DNA from: Nitrospira sp.
GTDB lineage: Bacteria > Nitrospirota > Nitrospiria > Nitrospirales > Nitrospiraceae
Direction: 5' to 3'
NCBI GenBank assembly: GCA_018242685.1
Contig: JAFEBM010000024.1
Location: forward strand, 1-64,000
DNA length: 64,000 nt
A program made the position numbers and the translations under genes. The notes beneath the pieces are model-generated. The model saw nothing but the letters and a program-made list of their open reading frames with translations, searched no databases and was not told the DNA's origin. Shown here piece by piece: positions 2,505 through 37,051 of this stretch; the first letter of the stretch is position 1; each line of letters starts with the position of its first letter.

Positions 2505-3152
2505 TTATTTGACCAAGAATGGCTTGGAATCTTCTCCGGACGCCGTTGTGACGGTTACCATGACAAGGCCCTTACGGCCATCGGTTGGGACCGTTGCTAA
2601 GATGGTAGATTCATTTTCCATCGTAAAGGTGGATGCCTGGCCTGGCCCGAAGGACACGCCTCTCAAGCAGTCCAGCGAGCCGAACTCGGCCCCTGTGATC
2701 GTGACTTTCACACCGGGTTCTCCTTCATCAGGAACAAGTCTTTCGATCTGTGGCGCAACGCCGAAACAGGCGTTGCCCTCCGCCGCAGTTTCAGCTGTTT
2801 GAAACTTCGGTTCGATCTTGGGTTTGGCGGTCTCGGGTTGAACGGTCTCGGGTTTGGCGATCTCGGGTTGGACAGTCTTAGGTTGAACCGTCTCGGGTTT
2901 GACGATCTCGGGTTGGACGGTTTGGGGTGTGGCGATCTTGGGTTTCTCGATCTTGGGTTTCTCGCTTTTGGGTTTGACGGCCTTTGGTTTGACAGCCTTG
3001 GGCTTGACGGTCTTTGGTTTGACGGTCTTGGAGTGTGGTTTGGCCTGTGATTGCTGATCCGCTGCAGGCGCGAGTCCTGGATCGATTATCTGCAAGGACA
3101 GGGTCATGATCCCGATCGAAATTGCTGCCGCAAAAATCGTTAGTTTCTCCAT
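2505..3152 (-). CDS. secreted proline/lysine-repeat protein with a C-terminal IPT/TIG domain
   Basis: A 215-residue protein with three parts. Residues 1-31 form a signal peptide (hydrophobic core AAAISIGIMTLSL, with an APAADQ end). Residues 43-115 are about 15 pentapeptides of the type (T/A/I)VKPK or TVQPE, lysine-rich first and glutamate-rich later. Residues about 130-215 form an Ig-like IPT/TIG domain (APQIERLVPDEGEPGVKVTI, GAEFG, VMVTVTTASG). TIG domains bind ligands or assemble surface proteins. The proline-rich stretch resembles the rigid periplasm-spanning spacer of TonB, but no TonB C-terminal domain is present. The role is unknown; periplasmic or outer-membrane association is inferred. 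Confidence 0.7.
   Translation of the reverse strand: MEKLTIFAAAISIGIMTLSLQIIDPGLAPAADQQSQAKPHSKTVKPKTVKPKAVKPKAVKPKSEKPKIEKPKIATPQTVQPEIVKPETVQPKTVQPEIAKPETVQPETAKPKIEPKFQTAETAAEGNACFGVAPQIERLVPDEGEPGVKVTITGAEFGSLDCLRGVSFGPGQASTFTMENESTILATVPTDGRKGLVMVTVTTASGEDSKPFLVK
2808..3026 (-). repeat. 15-bp tandem repeats coding for KP/QP pentapeptides
   Basis: About 15 degenerate 15-bp units lie in the coding strand of the TIG protein. Units shift from KPK-type to QPE-type along the array, so the array is diverged and probably does not slip often. Confidence 0.75.
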
Positions 3153-3206: not shown

Positions 3207-5096
3207 CTACTCTTCGATCGTCGAGATATCTCCTGGATCTTGCCCAAGCTCTTTGGCTTTCAATACGCGGCGCATGATTTTTCCTGACCGAGTCTTGGGG
3301 AGGGAGGAGACGATATCGATTTCAGCCGGGACGCCGATCTTGCCCAATTCTTTAAGGACCTGATCCTTGATCGACTTGATCAGCGCCGGGCTTTCCTGCT
3401 CCCCCTGTTTCAAGATGATGAAGGCCTTAATGGCTTCGCCGACCGTCTTGTGCGGTTTGCCGATCACGGCAGCCTCAGCGACGGCGGGATGACTGACCAA
3501 GGCGCTTTCCACTTCGGCAGTGCCGAGCCGATTGCCGGCGACTTTAATCACGTCATCCGCTCGGCCCATGAACCAGAAGTAACCGTCCGCATCTTTGTGG
3601 CAGACGTCGCCGGCCGTATAGCAATTGGGAATGGTGGACCAGTAGGCCTTATAACGCTCAGGATCCTTGTAAATGGTACGCATCATGGCCGGCCAGGGTT
3701 TTTTGATGACGGCAAAGCCGCCGGCGTGTGCGGGGAGACTGTTCCCCTCACGATCGACGACGTCGGCTTCAATGCCAAGAAACGGGCGCGTGGCCGAGCC
3801 TGGTTTCAACGGCACGGTGGGAAGCGGCGTGACCATGATCGATCCCGTTTCCGTCTGCCACCAGGTATCCATAATAGGTTTGTCTTCGCCGGTCATACGA
3901 TGGAACCATTCCCAGGCTTCCGGGTTGATCGGTTCCCCCACGCTCCCGAGGATACGAAGCGTTGAGAGATCGAATTTCTTCGGCCAGTCTTCGCCGTAGC
4001 GCATGAGCAGTCGGATCGCAGTCGGGGTCGTATAGAAAATCGAGACCCCATAGCGTTCAATGAGATCCCACCAGCGTCCGGGATTCGGATGATCCGGTTT
4101 CCCTTCCGCAGTCAGAATCGTTGCGCCATTGAGGAGAGGACCGTAGACGATATAGCTGTGGCCTGTGACCCATCCAGGATCAGCTACGCAGAAGTACACG
4201 TCATCATCTTTCAGGTCGAACACATACTTCGTCGTCGTATAGGTGCCGACCATGTACCCCCCATGGACATGAACAACGCCCTTCGGCCGACCGGTCGTGC
4301 CGGACGTATAGAGGATATAGAGCGGGGCTTCGGCATCCAGCTGCTCCGCTTCGCAAACCGGTCGTTCACTCTGGAGCCACTCATTCCAGTCGATTTCCTT
4401 TGGGGCAGAAAGGGGCGAACCTTGAATCTGACGGCGTACGACAACCACATGGTCGATCGTCGGACAGGTCTTCACGGCTTCATCCACGACGGCCTTCAAT
4501 TGGGTAGCCTTGCCGCGGTCGAACCCGACATCGGCGGTGATCACAACTTTGGACTCTGCATCGTTGATGCGGCTGGCGAGGGCAGGTGCACTGAAACCGG
4601 AATAGACGACGCTGTGGATCACGCCGATCCTGGCGCAAGCCAGCATGGCGATAACTTGCTCGGGTATCTTCGGCAGATAGATGGTGACACGATCCCCTCG
4701 CTGGAGGCCGAGTTTTTTGAGGGCGTTGGCGCAGCGGTTTACGTGTCGGTACAGTTCAGCATAGGTGAAGATTCGTTCCTGATCGTTTTCGCCCACCCAG
4801 ATCAACGCGACTTTGTTCTTGCGCCAGGTCTTGATGTGCCGGTCCAGGCAGTTGTAGGTGATGTTGCATCGTGCGCCGACAAACCATTTCGCCCATGGAT
4901 AATTCCACTCCAGGACCTTCTCCCAAGGAGAGAACCACTCCAACTCTTCGGCGGCATCGCTCCAAAATGTTTCAGGGTCCGCGATGGATTGTTTGTATGC
5001 GGTCTCGTAGTCTTTGATATAGGCAGCGGCTATCGTCTTGGCTGTCGGCTGGTATGTCCGACTTTCTTTCAACAGGGTCTCAATCTTTTCGCTCAT
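3207..5096 (-). CDS. acs: acetyl-CoA synthetase (AMP-forming)
   Basis: This enzyme activates acetate to acetyl-CoA through an acetyl-AMP intermediate in the cytoplasm. The 629 residues show the ANL-family signatures: the P-loop YTSGTTGRPKGVVHVHGG, DTWWQTETGS in the active site, AGDVCHKDADGYFWFMGRADDVIKVAGNR around the hinge (TAGD, R, D), and the C-terminal KTRSGKIMRR, whose Lys in SGK is the residue acetylated in other Acs enzymes. Length is normal for Acs (about 650). ATG 5096 (MSEKIETLL) is preferred over a longer frame to 5174 because GGAGAGG lies just upstream and family members begin near here. It is divergent from the caspase-like gene. A role in acetate assimilation is inferred from the family. 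Confidence 0.95.
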   Translation of the reverse strand: MSEKIETLLKESRTYQPTAKTIAAAYIKDYETAYKQSIADPETFWSDAAEELEWFSPWEKVLEWNYPWAKWFVGARCNITYNCLDRHIKTWRKNKVALIWVGENDQERIFTYAELYRHVNRCANALKKLGLQRGDRVTIYLPKIPEQVIAMLACARIGVIHSVVYSGFSAPALASRINDAESKVVITADVGFDRGKATQLKAVVDEAVKTCPTIDHVVVVRRQIQGSPLSAPKEIDWNEWLQSERPVCEAEQLDAEAPLYILYTSGTTGRPKGVVHVHGGYMVGTYTTTKYVFDLKDDDVYFCVADPGWVTGHSYIVYGPLLNGATILTAEGKPDHPNPGRWWDLIERYGVSIFYTTPTAIRLLMRYGEDWPKKFDLSTLRILGSVGEPINPEAWEWFHRMTGEDKPIMDTWWQTETGSIMVTPLPTVPLKPGSATRPFLGIEADVVDREGNSLPAHAGGFAVIKKPWPAMMRTIYKDPERYKAYWSTIPNCYTAGDVCHKDADGYFWFMGRADDVIKVAGNRLGTAEVESALVSHPAVAEAAVIGKPHKTVGEAIKAFIILKQGEQESPALIKSIKDQVLKELGKIGVPAEIDIVSSLPKTRSGKIMRRVLKAKELGQDPGDISTIEE

Positions 5097-5265
5097 GACA
5101 GCGGCCTCTCCTTCTTCAGCGCAGTCCCTTGTGGGCTCGTAATTATGGAGAAAGTCGCGGATGCCTGCAACCATACAGTTGGTCCGAGCTCAGCTCGTCG
5201 TGGCGCCTTGGTTTCTCTCGACTCCGTTCCTTGACACCTGTTTAGGCCGGAGATAGGCTGGCTCG

Positions 5266-6189
5266 ATGAACAGCGTACGACATGTTGGGAAAACCCTGTT
5301 GTTGATGTCCTTATGCCTGTTTCTATCGGGGGCTCACGTGATCGGCATGTTCTCGGTGATCGCCCTGCCGACCGCTGAGGCTCAATCGGGAAAGCCGGAA
5401 GACCTGTACTATAAGTCCTGGGCGATCATCATTGGAATCGAAAACTATGTCTTGGCTCCTCCCATTCCGGGAGCGATCACCGATGCCAAGAAGGTTGCCG
5501 AGGCATTTCGGCGGTTGGGGTTTGATGAAGTGGTCGAGTTCTACGACAAGGATGCAAGCTCGCGACGCCTCCATCAGCTTTTGAACGATATGTTGCCGAG
5601 AAAAGTGGGACGTATGGACCGGCTCGTCATCTTTTATGTGGGTCATGCGGGGTTTATGCAGGACTCCGATGGGCAAGAGCGAGGGTATCTGGTGCCGTTT
5701 GACGCACAGATCAACAACGCCGCGAAGTCGATCACGGTTGAGCACTTAAAAGAATTTACGAGACGTTCGGCTTCCAAACACACGCTCCTGATTCTCGATG
5801 CGCCGGTATTCGGATGGGAGACCACTGCGCCGGCGGAGCTGTCATTGGAAGGACGGATGGCGCCGGAATCGGATACGGATCGGCGTGCGGTTCAGGTCAT
5901 TAGCGCGGCAGGGAAAGGAGAGGCCGCTGTTCGCGTCGAGAAGAGCAGTCGTTTTGTTGAGACACTATTGATCGGGCTGTCCGGTGATGCGGATCTGGAC
6001 GGAAACGGTTGGCTCATGGCTTCCGAGTTGGGGGACTACCTCGTGCGACAGGTCAAGGCGGCTTCCAATGGTGCACAACGCCCATCGAGTCTACGGATCG
6101 ACGGTGATGGAGACACGGCGTTGATCGAAGGACGGAGATCGGCGTTTACGCTTGGCGCCGATCCTCAGACCCCTTCTGAACAGCAATAG
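5266..6189 (+). CDS. caspase-fold (peptidase C14-like) protein lacking the catalytic cysteine
   Basis: This 307-residue protein has a signal sequence (about residues 1-40) and then a caspase/metacaspase fold: KSWAIIIGIENY at the start, VIFYVGHAGF with the expected catalytic His, and a HTLLILDAPVFGWE strand where active members read LLILDACxSG. The cysteine position is Pro, so peptidase activity is not expected. Near the C-terminus GDADLDGNGWL resembles an EF-hand loop. The protein is probably exported to the periplasm. It lies upstream of the lipoprotein genes in the same direction, with a small minus-strand frame between, so a shared operon is possible but not shown. The reading frame stays open for 41 codons past its TAG stop. 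Confidence 0.8.
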   Translation: MNSVRHVGKTLLLMSLCLFLSGAHVIGMFSVIALPTAEAQSGKPEDLYYKSWAIIIGIENYVLAPPIPGAITDAKKVAEAFRRLGFDEVVEFYDKDASSRRLHQLLNDMLPRKVGRMDRLVIFYVGHAGFMQDSDGQERGYLVPFDAQINNAAKSITVEHLKEFTRRSASKHTLLILDAPVFGWETTAPAELSLEGRMAPESDTDRRAVQVISAAGKGEAAVRVEKSSRFVETLLIGLSGDADLDGNGWLMASELGDYLVRQVKAASNGAQRPSSLRIDGDGDTALIEGRRSAFTLGADPQTPSEQQ

Positions 6190-6271
6190 GAGGCAAAGGC
6201 TCAATACGAACGTGCCGTTGCGCTGCGCGGGTTCGAGCAACCGTCAACCAAGCCGATGGCGTTTCAGTGTC

Positions 6272-6484
6272 CTAACTATTCTCGCCACCTTTCAGATAGC
6301 CAAGGCCGATCTTGACCGCTCGACGGGTGATTTCCGCCCAACGTGCCTGGGGGTAAGCCTCGAGGACCGCCGCAGCCTTGGGGTCTTGGATCTCAAGGTT
6401 CAAAATTCTAATGATGCCGTCGTCAATCTGGATGTCTGCCACAGATCTCCCTTCCGAGATACGATGACCGCTCGAAGCGGGCAT
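6272..6484 (-). CDS. small hypothetical protein
   Basis: A possible 70-residue protein starting MPASSGHRISEGRSVAD. It is soluble, with the segment IRILNLEIQDPKAAAVLEAY and a helix WAEITRRAVKIGLGYL. It has no signal peptide. It lies on the opposite strand between the caspase-like gene and the LPP20 gene. Upstream in-frame methionines allow a start at 6556, but those residues look like non-coding sequence. I recognise no family; the helix pattern is somewhat like small DNA- or partner-binding proteins. It may also be a chance frame. Confidence 0.45.
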   Translation of the reverse strand: MPASSGHRISEGRSVADIQIDDGIIRILNLEIQDPKAAAVLEAYPQARWAEITRRAVKIGLGYLKGGENS

Positions 6485-6591
6485 TGCGTTGACTGATAAA
6501 AAAACGCATGCTAGCATAATTTCAGCGTTTTTCTCTGGATATGAGATAGTATACATGCAGCACTATGCCTAGTCACCTCAAGGAGGATTGT

Positions 6592-7158
6592 ATGATCAGG
6601 TCACAAACGATTCATTCAAGGCTGGTCGGCTCCGGTCTTGTCGTCCTTCTCATCATGGGACTTGCGGCTTGTGGTGGTCCTCCTAAATGGGTTTCAAAAG
6701 GGTCCGGAGTCTATAACGAAAAAGACAGCAAGGCCTTTTATGGTGTGGGGGCCGTCGCGGGGGTTCGTAACGCACCACTTGCTTGGGATACGGCTGAGAA
6801 TCGCGGGAGGGCCGAGATCGCCAAGACATTCGAAACTTACACTGGATATCTGATGAGAGACTATGCGGCCTCGACGACCGCCGGAGATTTTACCCGAAAT
6901 ACGGAAGAGCAGAATGTCGAGCGAGCCATCAAAACCATCACGACGACGACGCTCAGCGGAGTCCGGAAAATTGATCAGTACATGGATCCCAAGACCGACA
7001 CCTATTACGTGTTGACCAAATTGAGTTTGGAGGACATGAAGAACAACTTGGAACAAGCCAAAGAGCTGAATTCGCAAGTACGGGACTTCGTGCGGAAGAA
7101 TGCCGACCGTCTATTCGAACGATTGGAGAAGGAAGAGGAAAAGCGAGGCGTTCACTAA
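6592..7158 (+). CDS. LPP20-family lipoprotein
   Basis: ATG 6592 is preceded by AAGGAGG at 6580-6586 and begins a 188-residue lipoprotein. The signal peptide ends in LAAC with Cys27 as the lipid attachment site. The mature part starts PKWVSKGSG, continues through FYGVGAVAG and an AENRGRAEIAKTFETYTGYL helix, and matches the LPP20 family, which includes Helicobacter Lpp20 and the Vibrio flagellar FlgP. It ends in a charged coiled-coil (FVRKNADRLFERLEKEEEK). It is probably anchored in the outer membrane. It is the first of four clustered lipoprotein genes; no flagellar genes are in the window, so a flagellar role is not implied. Confidence 0.82.
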   Translation: MIRSQTIHSRLVGSGLVVLLIMGLAACGGPPKWVSKGSGVYNEKDSKAFYGVGAVAGVRNAPLAWDTAENRGRAEIAKTFETYTGYLMRDYAASTTAGDFTRNTEEQNVERAIKTITTTTLSGVRKIDQYMDPKTDTYYVLTKLSLEDMKNNLEQAKELNSQVRDFVRKNADRLFERLEKEEEKRGVH

Positions 7159-7202
7159 GCCCACATGGCGAATGCGAGTCCACCTCTTTTCGGAGGTTCA
7201 CC

Positions 7203-7814
7203 GTGATCCGGAATCATCGCTCTTCGCTTGTCGCCGGGGTAAGTGTCGTCCTCGCTCTGTCAGGATGCGGACAGGAAACAAAGGTGACTCGTGTCGATAC
7301 CGGGGTCGTGACTGATTTGAGCGGTCGGTGGAACGACACGGATTCTCGGATGGTCGCCGAAGCGATGGTCAAGGATGCGCTGCAATATCCGTGGCTGGGG
7401 AATTTTGAAAAGACGAACCAACGTCAGCCAGTCGTCATCGTGGGGACGGTCTTGAACAGCAGTCATGAACATATTAGCGTGCAAACCTTCATCACGGATT
7501 TGGAACGAGAACTCACCAATTCTCAGAAAGTCACGTTCGTGGCCGGTAAAGGCGAGCGCGACGAGGTGCGAAGCGAACGGAAAGAGCAAGCCATCTACGC
7601 GCTCGAAGAGACCCAGAAAGCCCCAGGAAAAGAGACAGGGGCTGATTTCATGATGAAGGGTACGATCGCCACCATTCTTGACGAAGCCGATGGAACCAAA
7701 GCGGTCTTCTACCAAGTGGATCTTCAGATGATCGATCTGGAGAGCAATGCAAAAGTCTGGTACGGGCAGAAGAAGATCAAGAAGGTGGTTGAAAGAAAAC
7801 GCACCATCTTTTAG
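7203..7814 (+). CDS. lpoB: LpoB-like penicillin-binding protein activator lipoprotein
   Basis: A 203-residue lipoprotein with GTG start (GGAGG at 7193-7197), lipobox LSGC and Cys22. The mature sequence VTRVDTGVVTDLSGRWNDTDSRMVAEAM and the later GADFMMKGTI and FYQVDLQMIDLESNAKVWYGQKKIKK are characteristic of the LpoB/PBP-activator family. In E. coli LpoB reaches from the outer membrane through the peptidoglycan to stimulate PBP1b. Here it begins 44 bases after the LPP20 gene and 15 bases before the COG3014-like gene. Function as a cell-wall synthase activator is inferred from family; the partner synthase is not in the window. Confidence 0.85.
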   Translation: MIRNHRSSLVAGVSVVLALSGCGQETKVTRVDTGVVTDLSGRWNDTDSRMVAEAMVKDALQYPWLGNFEKTNQRQPVVIVGTVLNSSHEHISVQTFITDLERELTNSQKVTFVAGKGERDEVRSERKEQAIYALEETQKAPGKETGADFMMKGTIATILDEADGTKAVFYQVDLQMIDLESNAKVWYGQKKIKKVVERKRTIF

Positions 7815-7829
7815 GTTCCACGGACGCTG

Positions 7830-9290
7830 TTGAACCCAATTCTCCCACGCTCTGCCCACGGGCTGATTTCGTTGCTGCCGTTTCTTGCCGTTCTCGTGCT
7901 GTTGACCGGGTGCGGTCCTTCCGTCAATCGTTACCTCCTCATTGAACAAAGCCTCGTTGCCGGTGATCCGCAACAGGCCGCGGCCATCGTCGAACAAACA
8001 GAGAACGAGTATGGAGCAAAGGGGCGGTTACTGTATGAAATGGATCGGGGAATGGTGCTGCAGCTGGCAGGTCGATACCAACAAAGCAGTGCGGTATTAG
8101 AACAAGCGGAAGAGGAGGTCGAGCGGCTCTATACCAGGACCATCCGTTCGGAAACCGCCGCATTTCTCACCAACGACAATGCCTTGCCGTACGAAGGCGA
8201 CGCCTATGAACATGTCATGATCAACGTGATCAAGGCGTTGAACTATGCGGCTCAGGGGCAACTTCAGGAAGCACTGGTGGAGGCGCGACGTATCGACCAT
8301 CGCTTGAATGTGCTCAGCGACCGAGTGACGGATGCCGATCGGTACCGGAATGACGGGTTTGCCCGGTATTTAAGCGGTATTCTGTACGAGGCAACCGGTG
8401 ATCTCAATAACGCGTTTATCGCCTATCGCAACGCATATGAAGCGTACGGATCGATGAGCGGGTGGTCGAAGATGTCCGTTCCTTCTTCCCTGCAGTCCGA
8501 TCTCTTGCGCACAACGGAGGCGCTCAACTTAACCACCGAGTTTGCCGGGTATCGACAGACTTTCCCTGAGGTCGAATGGCAGTCCAGTGCATCCCAAGAG
8601 CAGCTCGCCCAAGTCGTAATGATCAGCTATAATGGTCGCGCTCCGAGGAAAGAGGATCTGTTCTTGGATCTACCCATTAGTCTGGATGCGCTGCAGTTGG
8701 TCTTGATCAATCGTGGAGTCTTCCAGTCCCCCTATCAGCGAAATCGCGCAGTGGACAGCGTGCTCTATGGACTCAACGGGCAGGTCGTTCGCGTGGCGCT
8801 CCCGCGGTTAGTCCCGCAAAAAACACGGGTGGCGTTTGAAAATATGACGCTGACCGATTCGTCCGGCCACTCGGTCAGTGCACGATCGGAACTCGCGCAA
8901 AATGTGACGGCTCTTGCAGAAAAGAGCCTTTCGGAACGCTTGCCGGCGATCACTGTGAAAGCGCTCGCTCGAGCGGCGACGAAGTATGCGATAGCGGAAG
9001 GCATCACCAGAGGTGCGCAGCATGCGGCTGGAAGGGATGGCGCTCCCTGGGTTGGACTGCTGGTTGCGTTGCTGGCTCATGGGCTGGCCGTGGCCTCCGA
9101 AGAAGCCGACAAGCGAAGTTGGCAGACCTTGCCCGACGAAATTCATGTGGCCCGGACATGGGTATCGCCTGGTCAGTACCAGGTGTCCATTCAACCGCCG
9201 GGACAAGAGGTGCCGACCACGAAAGATGGACAAACGATCGCGCTGACTGCAGGCCAGACGATGTTCATCATTCAGCGTGTGATGCAATGA
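7830..9290 (+). CDS. COG3014-like lipoprotein
   Basis: A 486-residue lipoprotein with TTG start, lipobox LLTGC and Cys28. The N-terminal half is helical and TPR-like (YEMDRGMVLQLAGRYQQSSAVLEQAEEEVERL, LNYAAQGQLQEALVEARRI, YEATGDLNNAFIAYRNAYEAYG). The C-terminal half contains an alanine-rich hydrophobic stretch (about 395-425, PWVGLLVALLAHGLAVA) and a beta-rich tail with a FIIQRV end. This arrangement matches the uncharacterised COG3014 proteins, which I recall occurring beside LpoB and LPP20 genes in other proteobacteria. It probably forms part of the same envelope complex. The next gene starts within its last codons (ATG 9287, TGA 9288-9290), so translation is coupled. Confidence 0.75.
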   Translation: MNPILPRSAHGLISLLPFLAVLVLLTGCGPSVNRYLLIEQSLVAGDPQQAAAIVEQTENEYGAKGRLLYEMDRGMVLQLAGRYQQSSAVLEQAEEEVERLYTRTIRSETAAFLTNDNALPYEGDAYEHVMINVIKALNYAAQGQLQEALVEARRIDHRLNVLSDRVTDADRYRNDGFARYLSGILYEATGDLNNAFIAYRNAYEAYGSMSGWSKMSVPSSLQSDLLRTTEALNLTTEFAGYRQTFPEVEWQSSASQEQLAQVVMISYNGRAPRKEDLFLDLPISLDALQLVLINRGVFQSPYQRNRAVDSVLYGLNGQVVRVALPRLVPQKTRVAFENMTLTDSSGHSVSARSELAQNVTALAEKSLSERLPAITVKALARAATKYAIAEGITRGAQHAAGRDGAPWVGLLVALLAHGLAVASEEADKRSWQTLPDEIHVARTWVSPGQYQVSIQPPGQEVPTTKDGQTIALTAGQTMFIIQRVMQ

Positions 9291-10426
9291 TGCGTGCCGG
9301 TCAATCTTCTTTCCGACAAGGCATCGCGGGTTTCCTGTGCCTGTGGTTAATGGTGTCCGCATCAACGGCCTGTACCTGGTTCACTGGAACAGGGAAGCCG
9401 GGGTGGGTCGATGGCCGGAGTGTGGAATATCCATCGACTCAATACCTGACCGGTGTCGGTCAAGCGGACACTCGAAGCAATGCGGAGGATCAGGCCTATG
9501 CGGCCGTGGCCCGCATCTTCAAGGCGGAAGTCGCGGCGCAGGCTAAGGACTGGGAATCGTATCGGGTCGTTGAGAATCATGGTGTCTCCAACGCCGAGCG
9601 GCGGCTCACGATCGACAATGTGACGAAAGTCTCGACCGATAAAGTGCTTGAAAACGTCAGGATCGCCGATGTGTGGCACGACCCGGACAGCCGGTCGTAC
9701 TACGCTCTTGGCGTGATGAATCGTGCTCAGGCCGAGGCCGCGTTGCTGGAGAAGGTGACGGCGTTGGATGGGGCGATCGAGGCGGATGTCGCCGAGTCAC
9801 GACAAACGACCGACAAACTGGCGAAGGTCCGCGCGCTTCGGCGGGCCGACAGAAATCTCGTGCTGCGCGAGGTCTACAACACGGATTTGCGGGTAATCCG
9901 TCTCAACGGGCACGGTACCTCATCCGGCTATCAGGTAAACGAATTATCCGATGAGTTGGAGCAATTTCTTGCCACGAATCTGGTACTTGCGGTACAAGTG
10001 TCCGGCGACCATGCAGAACCGGTGGGGCGTGCATTGGCGGAAGGGTTGATCCGAGAAGGGCTTCACGTGACCACAAAGACGGAACATGAAGAGGTTGGCT
10101 CTCCGGAATTGATCGTCCGAGGCACTGTCCGCCTATTCCCCGTCGAGGTGCGGGACCCGAATTTCAAGTACGTTCGATGGTGTAGTGATTTTGAGATAGT
10201 GGAACCTGGGACGGGACGCGTCCTTGGAGCGGTGGCGCAGGGTGGAAAGGAAGGACATCTGACAGAGCGTGAAGCCACGGCGAAGACCCTGCGCGTGGTG
10301 CAACAAGAATTGTCGTCGGATGTCGCAAAGGCGATTGCCGCGCATATCTTCGGCGACGTCGCGCTGCCCGAGGCGGCCACGATACCGGCGGGTTGCCCAC
10401 GAGAAGAATCAGAGGTGAGGCGGTAA
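9287..10426 (+). CDS. large LPP20/FlgT-like lipoprotein
   Basis: A 379-residue lipoprotein with Cys29 after SASTA. The first part (PGWVDGRSVEYPSTQYLTGVG, then ADTRSNAEDQAYAAVARIF) repeats the LPP20 theme of the gene at 6592. The second part (from about residue 200: LREVYNTDLRVIRLNG, then ELIVRGTVRLFPVEV and FEIVEPGTGRVLGAV) resembles the CsgG/FlgT-type fold, in which small beta-alpha repeats sense or bind envelope components. It overlaps the COG3014-like gene by 4 bases, so both are likely made in fixed ratio. It ends the lipoprotein run; the next gene is an antitoxin-like protein 31 bases on. A long N-terminal extension from 9119 is rejected because it has no signal peptide. Confidence 0.72.
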   Translation: MMRAGQSSFRQGIAGFLCLWLMVSASTACTWFTGTGKPGWVDGRSVEYPSTQYLTGVGQADTRSNAEDQAYAAVARIFKAEVAAQAKDWESYRVVENHGVSNAERRLTIDNVTKVSTDKVLENVRIADVWHDPDSRSYYALGVMNRAQAEAALLEKVTALDGAIEADVAESRQTTDKLAKVRALRRADRNLVLREVYNTDLRVIRLNGHGTSSGYQVNELSDELEQFLATNLVLAVQVSGDHAEPVGRALAEGLIREGLHVTTKTEHEEVGSPELIVRGTVRLFPVEVRDPNFKYVRWCSDFEIVEPGTGRVLGAVAQGGKEGHLTEREATAKTLRVVQQELSSDVAKAIAAHIFGDVALPEAATIPAGCPREESEVRR

Positions 10427-10457: not shown

Positions 10458-10727
10458 GTGAAAAAGACCGACGAACTATCCACCAGCCGAGCCCCACGCA
10501 GCAGGGGGCGGGGATTGACCAAGTCAGGACAAAAGATTTCCAGCCGTCTGGCCAAGCGGCGATTGAACGACCGATTGAAGGAAGACACGGCGGCCTTCAA
10601 TAGCGGGAATCTCGCCGACACCTTGCGAAAAGAAGGGTACGAAGAGGTGCCGCTCGATGAACTCCAAGATAGGCTCTCCAAACTCCAAGGGCCGCTCGCG
10701 GAAATCATTCTGAAGGGGAGGGTATAA
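10458..10727 (+). CDS. antitoxin-like partner of the PIN protein
   Basis: A small basic protein (89 residues). The N-terminus is rich in Lys, Arg and Ser (APRSRGRGLTKSGQKISSRLAKRR), while the C-terminal half (YEEVPLDELQDRLSKLQGPLAEII) is acidic and helical. It ends 4 bases before the PIN-domain gene, with GGGGA between, and the pair has the usual antitoxin-first order. No ribbon-helix-helix or AbrB motif is visible, so the DNA-binding mode is unknown. GTG 10458 is the start; AGGAGG at 10442-10447 is 10 bases upstream. Confidence 0.6.
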   Translation: MKKTDELSTSRAPRSRGRGLTKSGQKISSRLAKRRLNDRLKEDTAAFNSGNLADTLRKEGYEEVPLDELQDRLSKLQGPLAEIILKGRV

Positions 10728-10731
10728 GGGG

Positions 10732-11175
10732 ATGCCATACTACTATTTCGACTCAACCGCACTCATTAAGCGCTACAGCATGGAACGGGGCACGAGGATC
10801 GTGAATAAGCTGATGGTGAAGCGCGGGAAGGTCGCGATCGTCCCGACATGGACCGTGACGGACTTCTATTCGATTCTGTGCGCACGCGCTCAAGAGGGGC
10901 AGATTACGCGGGATGATTGCTACTCGGTTCTCTATAAGTTCGAAATCGAATCCAAGCAGGGACTCTACCAGTTTGTCGCGCCGAAGATGGAAACCTACCT
11001 GGCCACGAAAGAATTGGTCTTGGAGTATCCGTTCCTGCGATCACCTCAGGTGATGCATCTGGCATTGGCATTGGAGCTGAAGCCGTTGCGACTGACCGTC
11101 GTCAGCGCGGATCCCCAGTTGCTGGCGGCGTCAAAAACCGCTGGACTGCATATTATCAATCCGGCAGAAGACTAA
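10732..11175 (+). CDS. PIN-domain protein (VapC-like toxin)
   Basis: A 147-residue PIN domain. The first acidic residue is Asp7 in YYYFDSTALIKRY, Asp44 follows in TVTDFYSIL, and the last is Asp127 in VVSADPQLLAAS. The usual mid-domain aspartate in the RxxDAxHLA motif is replaced (RSPQVMHLALAL), so one metal ligand of the RNase site is absent and activity may be weak or lost. PIN toxins cut tRNA or mRNA when free of antitoxin. It overlaps no gene and follows its partner by 4 bases. The pair sits directly behind the lipoprotein run and may be a later insertion. Confidence 0.75.
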   Translation: MPYYYFDSTALIKRYSMERGTRIVNKLMVKRGKVAIVPTWTVTDFYSILCARAQEGQITRDDCYSVLYKFEIESKQGLYQFVAPKMETYLATKELVLEYPFLRSPQVMHLALALELKPLRLTVVSADPQLLAASKTAGLHIINPAED

Positions 11176-29602: not shown

Positions 29603-30073
29603 ATGATCACCGGTGACATCAAGAATCAGATCGATCGGATTTGGGACTCCTTCTGGTCAGGTGGGATCTCGAATCCGCTGGAGGTGATCGAGCAGATCAC
29701 CTATCTGCTCTTTATTCGCCGACTCGACGATCTGCACCAGCTGGAAGAGAACAGGGCCAATCGCCTCAAGCAGCCGATGGAGCGTCGAATCTTCCCAGCA
29801 GGGAATGATTCCAAGGGACGCCCGTACCAAGACTTCCGCTGGTCTCGCTTCAAACACTTCGCCCCAGCCGAGATGTTCACCGTCGTCGGTGAGCATCTGT
29901 TCCCCTTCCTCCGCGCCGACCTTGCGCGCCAGCTCGGCAATGGCGACTCGACCTACGCTCACCACATGAAGGACGCGCGGTTCACCATCCCGACGCCTGC
30001 GTTGCTGGCGAAGGTGGTGGACATGCTCGACCACGTACCGATGGAAGATCGTGACACCAAGGGCGATGTCTAG
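29603..30073 (+). CDS. hsdM: HsdM N-terminal fragment (type I DNA methyltransferase, cut by amber codon)
   Basis: The first 156 residues of a type I modification subunit: the helical N-terminal recognition domain (IKNQIDRIWDSFWSGGISNPLEVIEQITYLLFIRRLDD, FTIPTPALLAKVVDMLDHVPMEDRDTKGDV). It stops at TAG 30071-30073 where other HsdM proteins read GDxYEYML, so one base change from TAC or TAT would explain the stop. The next codons in the same frame continue HsdM without loss, and the catalytic domain is encoded from 30080. ATG 29603 follows AAAGGAAA. Confidence 0.85.
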   Translation: MITGDIKNQIDRIWDSFWSGGISNPLEVIEQITYLLFIRRLDDLHQLEENRANRLKQPMERRIFPAGNDSKGRPYQDFRWSRFKHFAPAEMFTVVGEHLFPFLRADLARQLGNGDSTYAHHMKDARFTIPTPALLAKVVDMLDHVPMEDRDTKGDV

Positions 30074-30079
30074 GAGTAC

Positions 30080-31189
30080 ATGCTGGCCAAGATCGCCACC
30101 GCGGGGCAGAACGGCCAGTTCCGCACCCCGCGTCACATCATCCGGCTGATGGTCGAGCTGACTGCTCCGACTCCTGCTGATGTCATCTGCGATCCGGCCT
30201 GCGGCACGGCGGGCTTTCTGGTGGCAGCGGGTGAGTATTTGCGCGAGCGGCATCCGAACCTACTGCACGACGCGAAGCAGCGAGAGCACTTCCACCACCG
30301 GATGTTCCACGGCTTCGACTTCGACAACACGATGTTGCGCATCGGCAGCATGAATATGCTGTTGCACGGAGTGGAGAGCCCGGACATCCGCTACCGCGAC
30401 TCGCTTGCGCAGGACCATGTGGGCGAGGAGGAGAAATACACGCTGGTACTCGCCAATCCGCCGTTTGCCGGGAGCCTCGATTACGAGAACACCGCCAAAG
30501 ACCTGCTCCAGATCGTCAAGACCAAGAAAACTGAGCTGCTCTTCCTCGCCCTCTTCCTACGCCTGCTCAAGCCCGGCGGGCGCGCCGCAGTCATCGTGCC
30601 CGACGGCGTGCTGTTCGGCTCAAGCAAGGCGCACAAGGAGCTGCGCCGCATCCTGGTGGAAGATCAGAAGCTCGATGCAGTGATTAAGCTGCCTGGCGGA
30701 GTGTTCAAACCCTACGCAGGTGTCTCGACAGCGATCCTGGTTTTCACCAAGACGAACTCGGGCGGCACCGACTTCGTCTGGTTCTACGAGGTCGAGGCCG
30801 ATGGCTGGAGCCTCGACGACAAACGCACGCCGCTCCTGTCCGAAGAGAAGCTCGGCCCAGTGCCCTCATTCCTTCGTCATTCCCGCGAAAGCGGGAATCC
30901 ACGGTCTCTATCCGATGACGAACATGCGAAAAACAACCTCCCTGACGTACTCGCGCGCTGGGTGAACCGCGTCGAGATTGAGTGTGAGCGGCCACGCACC
31001 GCGCAGAGCTTCTGCGTGCCGAAGGCCGACATCGCAACACAGGGCTATGACCTCTCACTCAATCGTTACAAAGAAGTCGTGCATGAGGTAGTCGAGCACC
31101 GTCCGCCGAAAGAGATCCTCGCGGAGCTGGCGAAGCTGGAGGAGGAGATCCAGCAGGGGATGAAGGAGTTGGAGAGTATGCTCGGATGA
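30080..31189 (+). CDS. hsdM: HsdM catalytic domain fragment (N6-adenine methyltransferase)
   Basis: A 369-residue continuation of HsdM in the same frame. It holds the SAM-binding motif DPACGTAGFLVAAG and the catalytic NPPF in LVLANPPFAGSLD, plus DGVLFGSSKAHKELR and a C-terminal region to residue 369. ATG 30080 lies 6 bases after the amber stop and AGGAG (30072-30076) just before it, so restart or independent translation is possible. An in-frame palindromic insert (around 30866-30915) adds SFLRHSRESGNP to the protein, after the methylase core. Overlaps hsdS by 4 bases (ATGA). Whether the two pieces join into a working methylase is not known. Confidence 0.85.
   Translation: MLAKIATAGQNGQFRTPRHIIRLMVELTAPTPADVICDPACGTAGFLVAAGEYLRERHPNLLHDAKQREHFHHRMFHGFDFDNTMLRIGSMNMLLHGVESPDIRYRDSLAQDHVGEEEKYTLVLANPPFAGSLDYENTAKDLLQIVKTKKTELLFLALFLRLLKPGGRAAVIVPDGVLFGSSKAHKELRRILVEDQKLDAVIKLPGGVFKPYAGVSTAILVFTKTNSGGTDFVWFYEVEADGWSLDDKRTPLLSEEKLGPVPSFLRHSRESGNPRSLSDDEHAKNNLPDVLARWVNRVEIECERPRTAQSFCVPKADIATQGYDLSLNRYKEVVHEVVEHRPPKEILAELAKLEEEIQQGMKELESMLG
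30879..30898. repeat. in-frame REP-like palindrome inside hsdM
   Basis: ATTCCCGC and GCGGGAAT flank a GAAA loop. The block TCGTCATTCCCGCGAAAGCG resembles a widespread short palindromic repeat (compare neisserial dRS3) that gives RHSRESGNP when translated. Here the frame remains open through it. Confidence 0.65.
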
Positions 31190-32346
31190 GCACCCCGCAG
31201 TTAAGTCCAATTAGCGAGCTGGTGGAGCCGGTCTCCTCATGGACTCCTGAGCGTGAAGATCCAAATAACGTGTTTACTTACATTGATCTGAGCGCAGTCG
31301 ATCAAGATGCGAAGATCATTTCGGGAACACGCGAACTTGCGTGCTCTGATGCGCCGAGCAGGGCGCGTCAACTGATACGTGGTGGTGATGTACTTGTCTC
31401 AACGGTGAGGCCCAACTTGAACGGAGTTGCACGTGTACCACCAGAGTTCGACGGCGCAACAGCGTCGACAGGTTTCTGTGTGCTCCGCCCGAAGGCAGAT
31501 CGGTTGGACAGTCAGTATCTCTATCAGTGGGTCAAATCTCCGCTCTTTGTGAGCGACATGGTGCGCAAAGCAACGGGCGCCAGCTACCCAGCCGTCTCCG
31601 ATCGCATCGTCTGTGAATCGAAGCTTCCTCTCCCGCCTCTTCCCGAACAGCGGCGGATTGCGGTGATTCTGGACAAGGCGGACGAATTGCGGGCCAAGCG
31701 CCGCACCGCCCTCACGAAGCTCGACCGCCTCACCCAATCTATCTTCCTTGACATGTTCGGCGATCCCGTCACGAATCCGAAGGGATGGCCAATTTGTACG
31801 ATCGGCGATGTCGTCGATATTATTGTGCCCACGCGCGACAAGCCAAAAAGCTTCACCGGCGATATACCGTGGGTAACCTTGCCAGACCTCACGAGGCTTT
31901 TTGTCACTGGCGCAAAAAACTTACTTTCTGAGCGCGAAGCCGCTCAAGTTGGAAACCGATTGATCCCGTGTGGAAGTGTGCTGCTTAGTTGTGCTGCGAC
32001 GGTAGGTCGCGTGGCAATTGTCCGGCGATCGGTTTATGCGAATCAACAGTTCTATGGGCTTGTTCCTCGAAAAGATCTGGTGGTACCCGAGTATATCGCG
32101 TTGTGTCTCGAAGCAATGGGCGATCTGTATTTCAAACAATTGGGTGGCTCTTTCACGATTTCTTTCTTTAGTAGGGATAAGACCCTCAGCATTCCGCTAC
32201 CGCTTCCGCCTCTCGAAAGACAATTGCAACTCACCGGGCTCATTGATGCGGTTGAGACGCTACGTGCGAGGCAGGAGGAATCGTTAGAAAAGTTTGATGC
32301 TGCTTTCGAATCCCTGCGACACCGCGCCTTCCGAGGAGAACTCTAG
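31186..32346 (+). CDS. hsdS: type I restriction specificity subunit HsdS
   Basis: A 386-residue specificity subunit with two target-recognition domains (about residues 1-150 and 190-345), each followed by a helical spacer: LPPLPEQRRIAVILDKADELRAKRRTAL and PLPPLERQLQLTGLIDAVETLRARQEES. HsdS tells the complex which two half-sites of a bipartite DNA sequence to bind. It begins within the hsdM stop (ATGA), so the two are coupled. The recognition sequence cannot be deduced. It is followed by a fic fragment and fic before hsdR. Confidence 0.9.
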   Translation: MSTPQLSPISELVEPVSSWTPEREDPNNVFTYIDLSAVDQDAKIISGTRELACSDAPSRARQLIRGGDVLVSTVRPNLNGVARVPPEFDGATASTGFCVLRPKADRLDSQYLYQWVKSPLFVSDMVRKATGASYPAVSDRIVCESKLPLPPLPEQRRIAVILDKADELRAKRRTALTKLDRLTQSIFLDMFGDPVTNPKGWPICTIGDVVDIIVPTRDKPKSFTGDIPWVTLPDLTRLFVTGAKNLLSEREAAQVGNRLIPCGSVLLSCAATVGRVAIVRRSVYANQQFYGLVPRKDLVVPEYIALCLEAMGDLYFKQLGGSFTISFFSRDKTLSIPLPLPPLERQLQLTGLIDAVETLRARQEESLEKFDAAFESLRHRAFRGEL

Positions 32347-32348
32347 CC

Positions 32349-32438
32349 ATGCCCTTCACCCCGCGCTTCACAATCACCAATGCTCCGGCGAGCCTCAATC
32401 AAGTTCGCCCATTGATTTACTTTCTTGGCACATCCTAA
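32349..32438 (+). pseudogene. N-terminal remnant of another fic-type gene
   Basis: Directly after hsdS, ATG 32349 begins MPFTPRFTITN, the typical start of many Fic-family proteins, but the following residues do not match and the frame stops at 32438. The intact fic gene downstream starts differently, so this is a leftover of a second Fic gene. Confidence 0.5.
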
Positions 32439-32462
32439 AATAACGACCATTCTTATTTTAGG
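32434..32462. promoter_or_regulatory. perfect 10-bp inverted repeat upstream of fic, candidate operator
   Basis: CCTAAAATAA and TTATTTTAGG are exact inverted repeats 9 bases apart, ending 12 bases before the fic ATG at 32475. The Fic protein has a winged-helix C-terminus, so autoregulation is a natural guess. Confidence 0.6.
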
Positions 32463-32474
32463 TTGGTTGTCGCC

Positions 32475-33641
32475 ATGCACAGACGCCCACCTGGAACATA
32501 CGTCGAGGTCGCGACGACCGACGAGCGGTTCAAGGCGTTCGTGCCGGCGCCACTGCCGCCCGAGCCGGCCATCGCCTGGTCGCCTACGCTACGGCGGTGC
32601 TTCGACGATGCGCTGATGGCATTGGGTCGCCTGGATGCGCTCTCTGCGCACCTGCCCAATGCCGCGTTGCTGCTCTATAGCTTCATCCGCAAGGAGGCGG
32701 TGCTGTCCTCGCAGATCGAGGGCACGCAATCCTCGCTTGCGGATCTCTTGCTCTATGAGATCGACGAGCAGCCAGGCGTACCGGTGGAGGATGCGCGTGA
32801 AGTGAGCCGCTGTGTGGCGGCGCTCGAACAGGGACTGAAATCGTTGCGCGGCGGGCTGCCGCTCTCCATGCGGCTGCTGTGCGGCATGCACAAGGTCTTG
32901 ATGTCGCATCCCGGAGGCCGCGGGAAGACGCCTGGGGAGGTGCGACGCTCGCAGGTCTGGATCGGCGGCACGCGGCCGGGGAACGCCGCGTTCGTGCCGC
33001 CCCCGGTCAACGCCTTGGCGGACTGTCTCAAGCTATTCGAACAATTCTTGAACGACGTGCCCGAGCCGACGCCGCCGCTCATCAAGGCGGCGCTCGCGCA
33101 TGTGCAGTTCGAGACCATCCATCCTTTTCTGGATGGAAATGGTCGCCTGGGGCGGCTGCTGATCGTGCTGCAGCTGGTCGCCGATGGTGTGCTGCGCGCC
33201 CCGATGCTCTACCCCAGCCTGTACTTCAAGACGCACCGCGCGTTGTATTACGACCTGCTCAACGCGGTGCGTCTTCACGGAGACTGGGAACGCTGGCTGG
33301 ACTTTTTCGCTGAGGGTGTGCAGGTCAGTGCCTCGCAGGCGACGGGTACGGCGAATGCGCTGCTGGCGCTGGTTAACACCGATCGTGACCGCATCGCAAG
33401 TCTGGGCCGGGCGGTGCCGTCTGCCATCGCCGTGCATCAGGCCATGCAGAAGCAACCGCTGGCGACGTCCGCTGCACTCGTCAAGGCTACGCGGTTGACA
33501 CCTGCAACGGTGAATAAGTCGCTCGCCCATTTGGAGCGTCTCGGTATTGTCGCTGAGTTGACCAACCGGCAGCGTGACCGAGTGTTCAGCTACCGACGCT
33601 ATGTGGACGAACTGACAGCGGAACTGGAGAGCACACCGTGA
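32475..33641 (+). CDS. Fic-domain protein with winged-helix C-terminus
   Basis: A 388-residue Fic protein. The core motif [12 protein letters not shown] (near residue 216) has the catalytic His and the phosphate-binding Asn-Gly-Arg. The inhibitory helix motif SxxxEG is present as SSQIEG (about 78-83), so self-inhibition through Glu82 is expected. The C-terminal 70 residues form a winged helix ([26 protein letters not shown]). Fic enzymes usually attach AMP to target proteins. It starts after the inverted repeat and its stop overlaps the hsdR start by 4 bases. It may regulate the restriction subunit or be a passenger. Confidence 0.88.
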
Positions 33642-36600
33642 GCCAGTTCATTTTCCTCCAGCGCGAATGGGCCGCCGTCTTCGAGGCGGCATCGAAGGCT
33701 GAAGCGGCTGTGCATGCCGATCCACGGACTGCCTGCTTCTACGCCCGTCGCACGCTGGAGCTGGCGGTAAGCTGGGCCTACAAGCACGATGCGGCGCTGA
33801 AGCTCCCGTATCAAGATAACCTATCGGCGCTGATCCACGAACCAAGTTTCAAGCTGGTGGCAGGCGAAGCTGTCTTCAGCAAAGCACGGGTGATCTGCAC
33901 GCTCGGTAACCGCGCGGTGCACAGCCATCGTCCTGTGCCGGAGTCGGATGCGCTGGCTGCCGTCCGCGAGCTGTTCCACGTCGCCTACTGGTTCGCCCGC
34001 ACCTACGCCCGTTCCGCGAGACCAGATGCCGGACTCGTATTCGATCCCTCGGCGATTCCCCGGCCTGTGCCAACCACCACGAACACCTCCGAACAGTTGC
34101 AGGCGATGGAGGCGCGTCTGCGCGAGCAGGACGAGAGCCTCGCAGCGCTGCTTGCCGACAAGACTGCGCTGGATGATGAACTGAAGCGCCTCCGTGTCGA
34201 AATTACGAAAGCCAAGCAATCGGCTGCGGCCCAGCCGGACGAGCACGACTACTCCGAAGCTGAAACGCGCGACTACTTCATCGATCTGCTGCTCAAAGAA
34301 GCAGGCTGGCTGCTCGACCAGCCACGTGATCGGGAGTTCGAGGTCAGCGGCATGCCGAACGATCAGGGTAAGGGCTTCGTGGATTATGTGCTGTGGGGTG
34401 ACGATGGCAAGCCGCTGGGGCTGGTGGAGGCCAAACGTACCCGCCGCGATGCGAGAGTTGGGCAACAGCAGGCGAAACTCTATGCAGATTGCTTGGAGCA
34501 GCAGTTTGGCCGACGTCCGGTCATCTTCTACTCGAACGGCTACGAGCACTGGATCTGGGACGATGCTCGCTACCCGCCACGCCAGGTGCAGGGGTTCTAT
34601 AAGAAAGCCGAGCTTGAGTTATTAATCCAGCGTCGTGAGACGCGGCGATTGCTAGGGGAGGCGCCGATAAACTCGACAATCGTCGAGCGCCATTACCAGA
34701 CGCGGGCCATCCGGCGCATGGCCGAGGCATTCGAGCGCGATCACGACCGCAAGGCGCTGCTGGTCATGGCGACCGGCGCCGGCAAGACTCGCACGGTGAT
34801 CGCCCTCTGCGACCTGCTGATGCGCTGCAATTGGGCCAAGCGCGTGCTCTTCCTTGCAGACCGCGTGGCGCTGGTCAATCAAGCTGTCAATGCTTTCAAG
34901 CGCCATTTGCCTGATGCTTCACCCGTGAACTTGGTCACCGAAAAGGACGGCGAGGGGCGCGTCTATGTCTCAACCTATCCGACCATAATGGGGATGATCG
35001 ACGAGACGGCGGATAGCCAGCGGCGTTTCGGCGTGGGACATTTTGATCTCGTGATCATCGACGAGGCGCACCGCTCGGTGTTCCAGAAGTACCGCGCGAT
35101 CTTCGATTACTTCGATTCTTTGCTCGTCGGGTTGACGGCCACGCCGAAGGACGAGGTCGATCGCAACACCTACAGCCTCTTCGATCTCGAAAATGGTGTG
35201 CCGACCGATGCCTACTCGCTGGAGGAGGCAGTACGTGACGGCTTTCTCGTGCAGCCACAGGCTGTTTCGGTTCCGCTCAAGTTCCAGCGCGAGGGCATCA
35301 CGTACGCCGAGCTGTCGGAGGAAGAAAAAGACCAGTGGGACGCGCTTGAGTGGGACGACGATGGCACCGTGCCAAGCCGGGTGGAGTCTGAGGCGGTGAA
35401 CAAGTGGCTCTTCAACAAGGACACGGTAGACAAAGTGTTGGAACACCTGATGACGCGCGGGCTCAAGGTTGCCGGTGGCGACAGGTTGGGCAAGACGATC
35501 ATCTTCGCCAAGAATCAGCAACATGCGGACTTCATCGCCGAACGCTTTAATGCCAACTATCCGCACTACAAGGGTGAGTTTGCACGGGTCATCACCTTCA
35601 AGACCGAGTATGCACAGAGCCTGATCGATAATTTCTCGAACAAGGACAAGGCGCCGCACATCGCGATCTCGGTCGACATGCTCGATACGGGTATCGACGT
35701 GCCGGAGGTTCTGAATCTGGTCTTCTTCAAACTGGTGCGGTCGAAGACGAAGTTCTGGCAGATGGTCGGGCGTGGTACGAGACTTTGTCCCGACTTGCTC
35801 GGGCCAGGGCAACACAAGGAGTTTTTCTATCTTTTCGACTACTGCCGAAATCTCGAGTACTTCAGTCAGGACATTCCTGAGACTGAGGGGATGGTGGGCG
35901 CTTCGCTGGGGAAGCGGCTCTTCAATGCACGATTGGAACTTCTTGGAGCACTGGATAGTGCTTCGCACGAAAAGCTGGTGACGGCGGTGAAGGAAGCGTT
36001 GGCGACGTATGGTGGCCCGGCGACGAAGGAGGACATGAGACGATCCGTTGCGGATCTGCTGCAACGGGAAGTTGCCGCTATGAACCTTGACAACTTTGTT
36101 GTGCGGCCGCATCGGCGACTGGTCGAAAAATACGCGAAGCCTGAAGCCTGGGTCGTGCTCGCGAACGAAGCGCTGGCTGAACTTTCACATGAGATAGCGG
36201 GACTGCCCTCTGAACTCGATCCCGAGAATGAAGAAGCGAAACGCTTCGATCTGCTCGCCTTGAGTCTACAACTCGCCTTGCTGCGGGCCGAGCCAGGGTT
36301 TGCACGTTTGCGCGACCGGGTCAGGGAGATCGCTGCGTTACTGGAGGAGAAGAGCGCCATTCCGATGGTCCGCGAGCAGATGGCCCTGATTCAAGATGTG
36401 CAGAGTGATGAGTGGTGGCAGGATGTGACGGTGCCTATGCTGGAAGTGATGCGCCGTCGCTTGCGCGGGTTGGTACAGTTCATCGACAAGCGCCAACGCA
36501 AGCCCGTTTACACGGACTTCGAGGACCTGATGGGAGGCGAGATCGGTATCACCTTGCCCGGCCTCGCTGTGGGTACCGATCAAGCCAAGTTTGTCGCCAA

Positions 36601-37051
36601 AGCGCGAGCGTTCTTAAGACAGCACCTTGATCATGTTGTGGTTGCCAAGCTGCGGATGAATAAGCCGCTGACCTCCTCGGACCTCGCGGAGCTGGAGCTG
36701 TTGTTGGGCAAGAGCGGCACTGGTGAGCCGGACGACATCCGCCGAGCGACAGTCGCATCCAAAGGGCTTGGGCTATTCGTACGGTCTCTGGTTGGGATGG
36801 ATCGGAGTGCTGCCAAGGAAGCATTGGCGGGATTTATCACCGGCAAGACATTCACTGCCAACCAGCTGGAATTCGTCAATCTGATCGTGGATCACCTCAC
36901 GGAGCACGGCGTGATGGAACCGGCTCGACTCTACGAATCACCCTTCACGGATCTTACGCCGTGCGGACCGGAAGGCTTGTTCCAGTCAGCGGAAATGGAT
37001 GAGCTGATCCGAGTTCTTGAAACCGTCCGGGCAACAGCTTCGGCAGCGTGA
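33638..37051 (+). CDS. hsdR: type I restriction endonuclease subunit HsdR
   Basis: A 1,137-residue motor/nuclease subunit. An N-terminal DUF4145-like region (about 1-140) and coiled coil are followed by the nuclease core with [18 protein letters not shown] (Glu-x-Lys near 264), then the SF2 helicase domain: Walker [15 protein letters not shown] (near 380), DEAH box [11 protein letters not shown] (near 475), GLTATP, and motif VI-like [12 protein letters not shown]-terminal EcoEI-type domain completes it. It pumps DNA and cuts it when the site is unmethylated. GTG 33638 overlaps the fic stop. With hsdM interrupted, an active HsdR would be risky, so either the methylase still works or R is inactive. 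Confidence 0.93.

Follow-up and report, generated by a model that had tools for sequence, protein, structure and literature searches.

Four conserved lipoprotein genes with LPP20, LpoB-like and COG3014-like products, and a neighbouring pseudo-caspase gene, in the Nitrospira family

Do a catalytically dead caspase and the four lipoproteins encoded beside it form one envelope system in Nitrospira? The question is raised by positions 5266 to 10426 of the first 64,000 nucleotides of contig JAFEBM010000024.1 (Nitrospira sp., assembly GCA_018242685.1; this whole stretch is called the window below), where a gene for a secreted protein of caspase fold is followed by genes for a short LPP20-family lipoprotein (LPP20a), an LpoB-like lipoprotein, a COG3014-like lipoprotein and a second, two-domain LPP20 protein (LPP20b; Table 1). 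A first-pass annotation had read these five genes as a possible undescribed system regulating the cell wall. Its observation was confirmed in part, and its interpretation is supported in part. As judged by sequence comparison, the lipoprotein run is a real, ancient cluster common to distant bacteria and varies on a set of genes described in part before, whereas the caspase beside it is well conserved but unexplained.

The tight same-strand run of four lipoprotein genes, including one overlapping pair, was borne out, with gaps of 44 bp and 15 bp followed by a 4-bp ATGA overlap between the COG3014-like and LPP20b genes. All four products carry a lipobox-type cysteine that is invariant in the alignments. 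Several starts in the cluster have ribosome-binding sequences ahead of them, and LPP20a most likely begins at 6592, behind AAGGAGG, rather than at 6565. The LpoB-like protein matched PF13036 with 134.1 bits (cut-off 22.3; E 4.5e-39), and LPP20b matched PF02169 with 42.7 bits (cut-off 25.9; E 7.6e-11); LPP20a stayed under the latter cut-off at 25.2 bits, with an alignment spanning nearly the whole model. For the COG3014-like protein, a Pfam search returned weak tetratricopeptide repeat (TPR) matches only, and no meaningful match was obtained when the COG3014 and LpoB profiles were compared with PDB sequences. Median ratios of nonsynonymous to synonymous substitution rates (dN/dS) were 0.067 for LPP20a, 0.09 for LpoB, 0.14 for COG3014 and 0.17 for LPP20b. 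A second PF13036 match in the genome, on contig C26 (L192, 2522–3769), is to a lipoprotein-like protein that combines a PDZ domain with one resembling CsgG/LpoB.

Gene order was then compared across Nitrospirota, counting loci that hold all four genes; the named loci and genome sets partly share genomes, and the counts are not independent. Order and strand of the four lipoprotein genes were constant in 73/73 named Nitrospira-family loci and 17/17 loci of same-genus genomes, as well as in the loci of other genera (3/3), of three further families within the order (12/12) and of deeper Nitrospirota (6/6). The first-pass annotation had named loss of gene order in relatives as the result that would speak against it; no such loss occurred, and the cluster is not a product of chance, its order being the same in all family genomes whose contigs are long enough to show it. 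LpoB and COG3014 genes were also found together at four loci (L167, L170, L177 and L178) where LPP20 genes were not found. One contig, NEWS02000004.1, bears a doubled cluster with mixed affinities (L060, L102) and is probably an assembly chimera.

In E. coli, the lpoB locus comprises ycfL, lpoB and thiK, and UB2H is the domain of the class A synthase PBP1B at which LpoB docks. Comparison outside Nitrospirota was made with one Aeromonas caviae record, in which genes for COG3014, DUF1425 (YcfL) and LpoB are consecutive and are followed by that of an apparent ThiK-type kinase. The COG3014-like protein of the window aligned with the Aeromonas protein at an hhalign probability of 99.7 (E 3.5e-27); together with the gene row, this homology shows that COG3014 is part of the lpoB locus in a second phylum. 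The genome from which the window comes encodes a class A synthase (L191) with Transgly, Transpeptidase and UB2H domains, a domain composition that makes a UB2H synthase partner plausible there, if not universal among relatives with the lipoprotein run. Shared with the LpoB–PBP1B system are therefore an LpoB-family lipoprotein, a UB2H class A synthase in the genome and COG3014 in the equivalent Aeromonas locus, whereas the four-lipoprotein run, the two LPP20 proteins, the absence of YcfL and an LpoB-like score under the TIGR02722 cut-off set the present locus apart.

The proposal that the system was undescribed did not stand for the lipoprotein part, relatives of which have been described in Campylobacter (PMC3100323) and Helicobacter. 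A literature search returned no account of a caspase together with COG3014, LPP20 and LpoB; nor did it return one of COG3014 together with LPP20 and LpoB. The Campylobacter jejuni cj0089–cj0090–cj0091 operon encodes a TPR lipoprotein, a small lipoprotein and an HP1457 homolog, with a described role in adherence (PMC3100323). TPR and LpoB-type lipoproteins thus share an operon there as well, likened by the published description and not by sequence, but order and third gene differ. HP1457 of Helicobacter has been described as an LpoB homolog and adjoins HP0018 homologs in enterohepatic species, and HP0018 is a 469-amino acid TPR lipoprotein whose deletion causes hypervesiculation and whose pull-down brought with it the wall hydrolases MltD and AmiA (PMC11394524). 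The predicted structure of LPP20b (mean predicted local distance difference test score, pLDDT, 77.5) had HP1454 of H. pylori as its top Foldseek match (E 1.4e-6), and a second aligner superposed 238 residues on the 242-residue HP1454 chain (Z 11.0, root-mean-square deviation 5.1); by sequence the two proteins matched with an E of only 0.018. For the COG3014 model (mean pLDDT 77.1), the fold search matched the N-terminal half to TPR proteins in general only and barely covered the C-terminal half. In comparison with the H. pylori set of HP1454–HP1457 and HP0018, LPP20b may have the two-domain arrangement of HP1454, to which its fold was matched over the whole length, and HP1456 is likewise an LPP20 protein (Lpp20), but HP0018 stands alone in H. 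pylori, the papers cited here mention no caspase, and HP0018 and HP1457 are likened by description rather than by sequence. A wall role of the lipoproteins, as first suggested, is thus supported by the LpoB family match, the UB2H synthase, COG3014 in the Aeromonas lpoB locus and the HP0018 work (PMC11394524), though not in the form of one caspase-led system.

The caspase open reading frame matched PF00656 with 49.7 bits (cut-off 21.4; E 5e-13), and its product has a signal peptide ending near ...AEAQ and looks secreted, not like a lipoprotein. The catalytic dyad was read in 86 aligned orthologs, one further alignment row not covering the site. Histidine was kept in 86/86 and cysteine in 0/86, the cysteine position being taken by Pro (52), Ala (27), Asn (5), Gly (1) or Glu (1), and the first reading of this caspase as dead was upheld. 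The residue before the His is invariably Gly, and Gly-Trp invariably follows the Cys position. On its sequence, the protein is a pseudo-orthocaspase as defined in the 2019 survey that named this group, that is, a p20 domain without the His-Cys dyad (PMC6426788); 90% of the pseudo-orthocaspases in that survey came from Alphaproteobacteria and Cyanobacteria, and in a survey from 2012 just 57% of the Nitrospirae caspase homologs retained the dyad (PMC3501461). TPR tails also occur in one group of the published pseudo-orthocaspases, but the published proteins as a whole most commonly have Tyr-Ser at the dyad (PMC6426788), whereas the Nitrospira protein keeps the His and has Pro, Ala or Asn for the Cys. 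The median dN/dS of the gene was 0.16 over 21 pairs; a value this low indicates purifying selection, and a decayed pseudogene was ruled out by it. Most orthologs are of about 460 residues with a C-terminal TPR domain, of which the shortened form in the window, 307 residues long, retains a remnant behind its stop codon, recognized by a 26-residue match across the stop that is 69–81% identical. A tree of the caspase domain required five changes of TPR label, and well-supported branches make at least two of these unavoidable; from these sequences, the caspase domain outlasts its TPR tail, which has been lost repeatedly. At one locus (L065, 2717–6244) the pseudo-caspase gene is duplicated in tandem.

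The first-pass annotation had the four lipoprotein genes follow the dead caspase. The caspase gene does stand upstream on the same strand, but about 400 bp lie between, and this interval holds an opposite-strand gene and a separate promoter-like site. The opposite-strand gene encodes a conserved protein of about 56 residues, with GTG or ATG as start and no Pfam match, and lies on that strand in 58/58 named loci showing both LPP20a and acs, the acetyl-CoA synthetase gene on the far side of the caspase. It is present also in relatives without the caspase, and conservation at the protein level, these relatives included, ruled out a chance reading frame; where the caspase is of full length, the two genes in many cases overlap at their stops. 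The promoter-like motif ahead of the lipoprotein genes recurs with identical spacing in 69/72 loci and also in L022, L023, L024 and L182, from families without the caspase, and a 65-locus alignment showed a conserved promoter-like site, matching the consensus, upstream of the caspase as well. Because of the gene between them and the conserved promoter-like site on each side, the caspase and the lipoproteins most likely form two transcription units, and the idea that the caspase heads the operon was rejected as improbable. The caspase was found between acs and LPP20a in 58/58 named Nitrospira-family loci (L102 being excluded), 17/17 loci of the same genus and 3/3 of other genera, and in 0/6 loci of other families and 0/1 in the deeper set; in the sampled relatives outside the Nitrospira family, the lipoprotein run persists and the caspase is absent from all. 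With its own promoter-like site, an opposite-strand gene in between and this distribution, the notion of a single five-gene system led by the caspase was not borne out.

What do the proteins do? The reading we prefer, which we consider evenly poised between right and wrong, is that of an outer-membrane module steering wall hydrolases as well as a class A wall synthase, to which a dead caspase-fold partner was added in one family. The four lipoproteins would be expressed as one operon from their own promoter and would make up a periplasmic module, anchored in the outer membrane, with an LpoB-type activator at its centre. This LpoB-like protein would stimulate the class A peptidoglycan synthase via its UB2H domain, the COG3014 protein would be a TPR scaffold gathering wall enzymes, both synthase and hydrolases, at the outer membrane, and the two LPP20 proteins would be structural outer-membrane partners of the HP1456/HP1454 kind. 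A gene for a secreted, TPR-tailed protein of caspase fold would have come to lie beside the operon in the ancestor of the Nitrospira family; this protein is predicted to be proteolytically dead and, if in the module at all, would act by binding in the periplasm and be expressed from a promoter of its own. From sequence we infer that the proteins may contact one another, that they may serve the wall and that the caspase may have some role among them.

Several results weigh against this reading. The LpoB-like protein scored 89 bits against the NCBI LpoB equivalog TIGR02722, below the cut-off of 110.55. The UB2H match of the synthase in the window's genome barely passed its cut-off (27.2 vs 27 bits), same-genus genomes giving stronger matches, and in relatives from families f2, f3 and f4 that have the lipoprotein run, UB2H matches were either absent or confined to frames about as long as the repair proteins Mfd or UvrB; one such match was read and is UvrB. 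In H. pylori, HP1454 and HP1456 did not interact by two-hybrid, and an hp1456 mutant had wild-type bacitracin resistance (PMC11756786). Finally, the caspase is no more faithfully kept beside the operon than are acs, the opposite-strand gene and the gene for a PIN-like protein downstream.

An alternative, which we rate only just short of an even prospect, is that the pseudo-caspase is a mere syntenic neighbour with an unrelated periplasmic task, kept in place by a stable stretch of chromosome. As acs and the small opposite-strand gene are equally well kept, linkage alone does not single out the caspase; acs itself adjoins the cluster not just in the Nitrospira family but in several others that lack the caspase, and is probably a syntenic neighbour only. 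The caspase also has a conserved promoter-like site of its own and an opposite-strand gene between it and the lipoproteins, and every sampled relative outside the family has the lipoproteins but no caspase beside them. The possibility that secreted caspases regularly accompany LPP20 or LpoB was rejected, since five caspase-paralog loci, two in the window's genome and three in relatives, have no such neighbours. Speaking against this alternative is a search with 15 window proteins as a fused query against ten genomes: acs, caspase, COG3014 and the PIN-like gene were together in 6/6 genomes of other genera, while most tested nearby gene pairs were separated in those six (a non-operon pair, 15602–17374/17364–18605, was together in 4/6), and the stretch from acs to the PIN-like gene is therefore better kept than its surroundings. 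What may tie the caspase to the module is conserved linkage together with purifying selection. The stronger form of the preferred reading, in which the dead caspase-fold protein of the Nitrospira family would be a dedicated periplasmic partner of the LpoB/COG3014/LPP20 module and a caspase fold would regulate cell-wall synthesis, is tentative, and we find it rather doubtful.

A different reading of the lipoproteins themselves, as an outer-membrane disk like that of FlgP/FlgT or as an outer-membrane secretion or lipopolysaccharide-related complex with no bearing on the wall, was considered unlikely. FlgP has an LPP20-family fold, FlgP and FapH of the flagellar motor are interaction partners of HP1456 and HP1454 in H. 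pylori (PMC11756786), and the C-terminal domain of the LPP20b model resembles CsgG, PelC and LptE, as well as TolB-N. That fold, however, is common among outer-membrane lipoproteins and carries little functional meaning; the linkage to LpoB and COG3014 is tight, the Aeromonas lpoB locus included, and the immediate neighbours showed no flagellar, secretion or lipopolysaccharide gene. That the caspase-fold protein is another kind of enzyme, whose kept His and invariant surroundings catalyse a reaction independent of Cys, is very improbable, as the residue at the Cys position varies in the manner expected where no catalysis takes place.

Table 1. Features of the caspase–lipoprotein locus and its flanks, in window positions
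Feature	Positions	Strand	Remarks
acs, acetyl-CoA synthetase	3207..5174	-	Divergent neighbour of the cluster
Putative caspase promoter, TTGACA-N17-TAGGCT	5231..5259	+	Consensus match in alignment of 65 loci
Secreted pseudo-caspase, 307 amino acids	5266..6189	+	Signal peptide, caspase p20 domain; His127 kept, Cys position is Pro180
TPR-domain remnant, in frame past the caspase stop codon	6190..6225	+	26-residue stop-spanning match
Gene for 56-residue protein, GTG start behind AGGGAG	6272..6442	-	Protein-level conservation
Putative lipoprotein-operon promoter, TTGACT-N17-TAGCAT, TG before -10	6489..6517	+	Motif conserved across loci
LPP20a, short LPP20-family lipoprotein, lipobox ..MGLAAC	6592..7158	+	PF02169 just below cut-off
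LpoB-like lipoprotein, GTG start	7203..7814	+	PF13036
COG3014-like lipoprotein, TPR-type helical N-terminal half and mixed beta/helical C-terminal half	7830..9290	+	
LPP20b, two-domain lipoprotein: LPP20 domain and C-terminal CsgG/TolB-N/LptE/PelC-like fold	9287..10426	+	
89-amino acid protein, Nitrospira-family-wide downstream gene	10458..10727	+	No family match
147-amino acid protein, PIN-like by eye only, Nitrospira-family-wide downstream gene	10732..11175	+	

Of all the genes measured, that of the 147-amino acid PIN-like protein had the lowest dN/dS (0.033), and its product gave no Pfam, NCBIfam or PDB match. Elsewhere in the window, positions 2505–3152 (minus strand) encode a protein in which a TIG domain is combined with a long (VKPK..)n repeat. 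Positions 38223–49103 are occupied by one open reading frame of 3626 codons, which adjoins a run of reading frames (29603–37051) resembling a type I restriction-modification or similar island.

For the lipoproteins, the finding matters since COG3014 and LPP20 proteins are widespread in outer membranes and have no agreed role; their fixed linkage to LpoB in two phyla opens a role with the wall synthase to direct test. In the pseudo-caspase, a fold has clearly been kept under selection throughout a family after losing its catalytic Cys and, repeatedly, its TPR tail, and it raises the question of what use a caspase fold may have to these bacteria without proteolysis.

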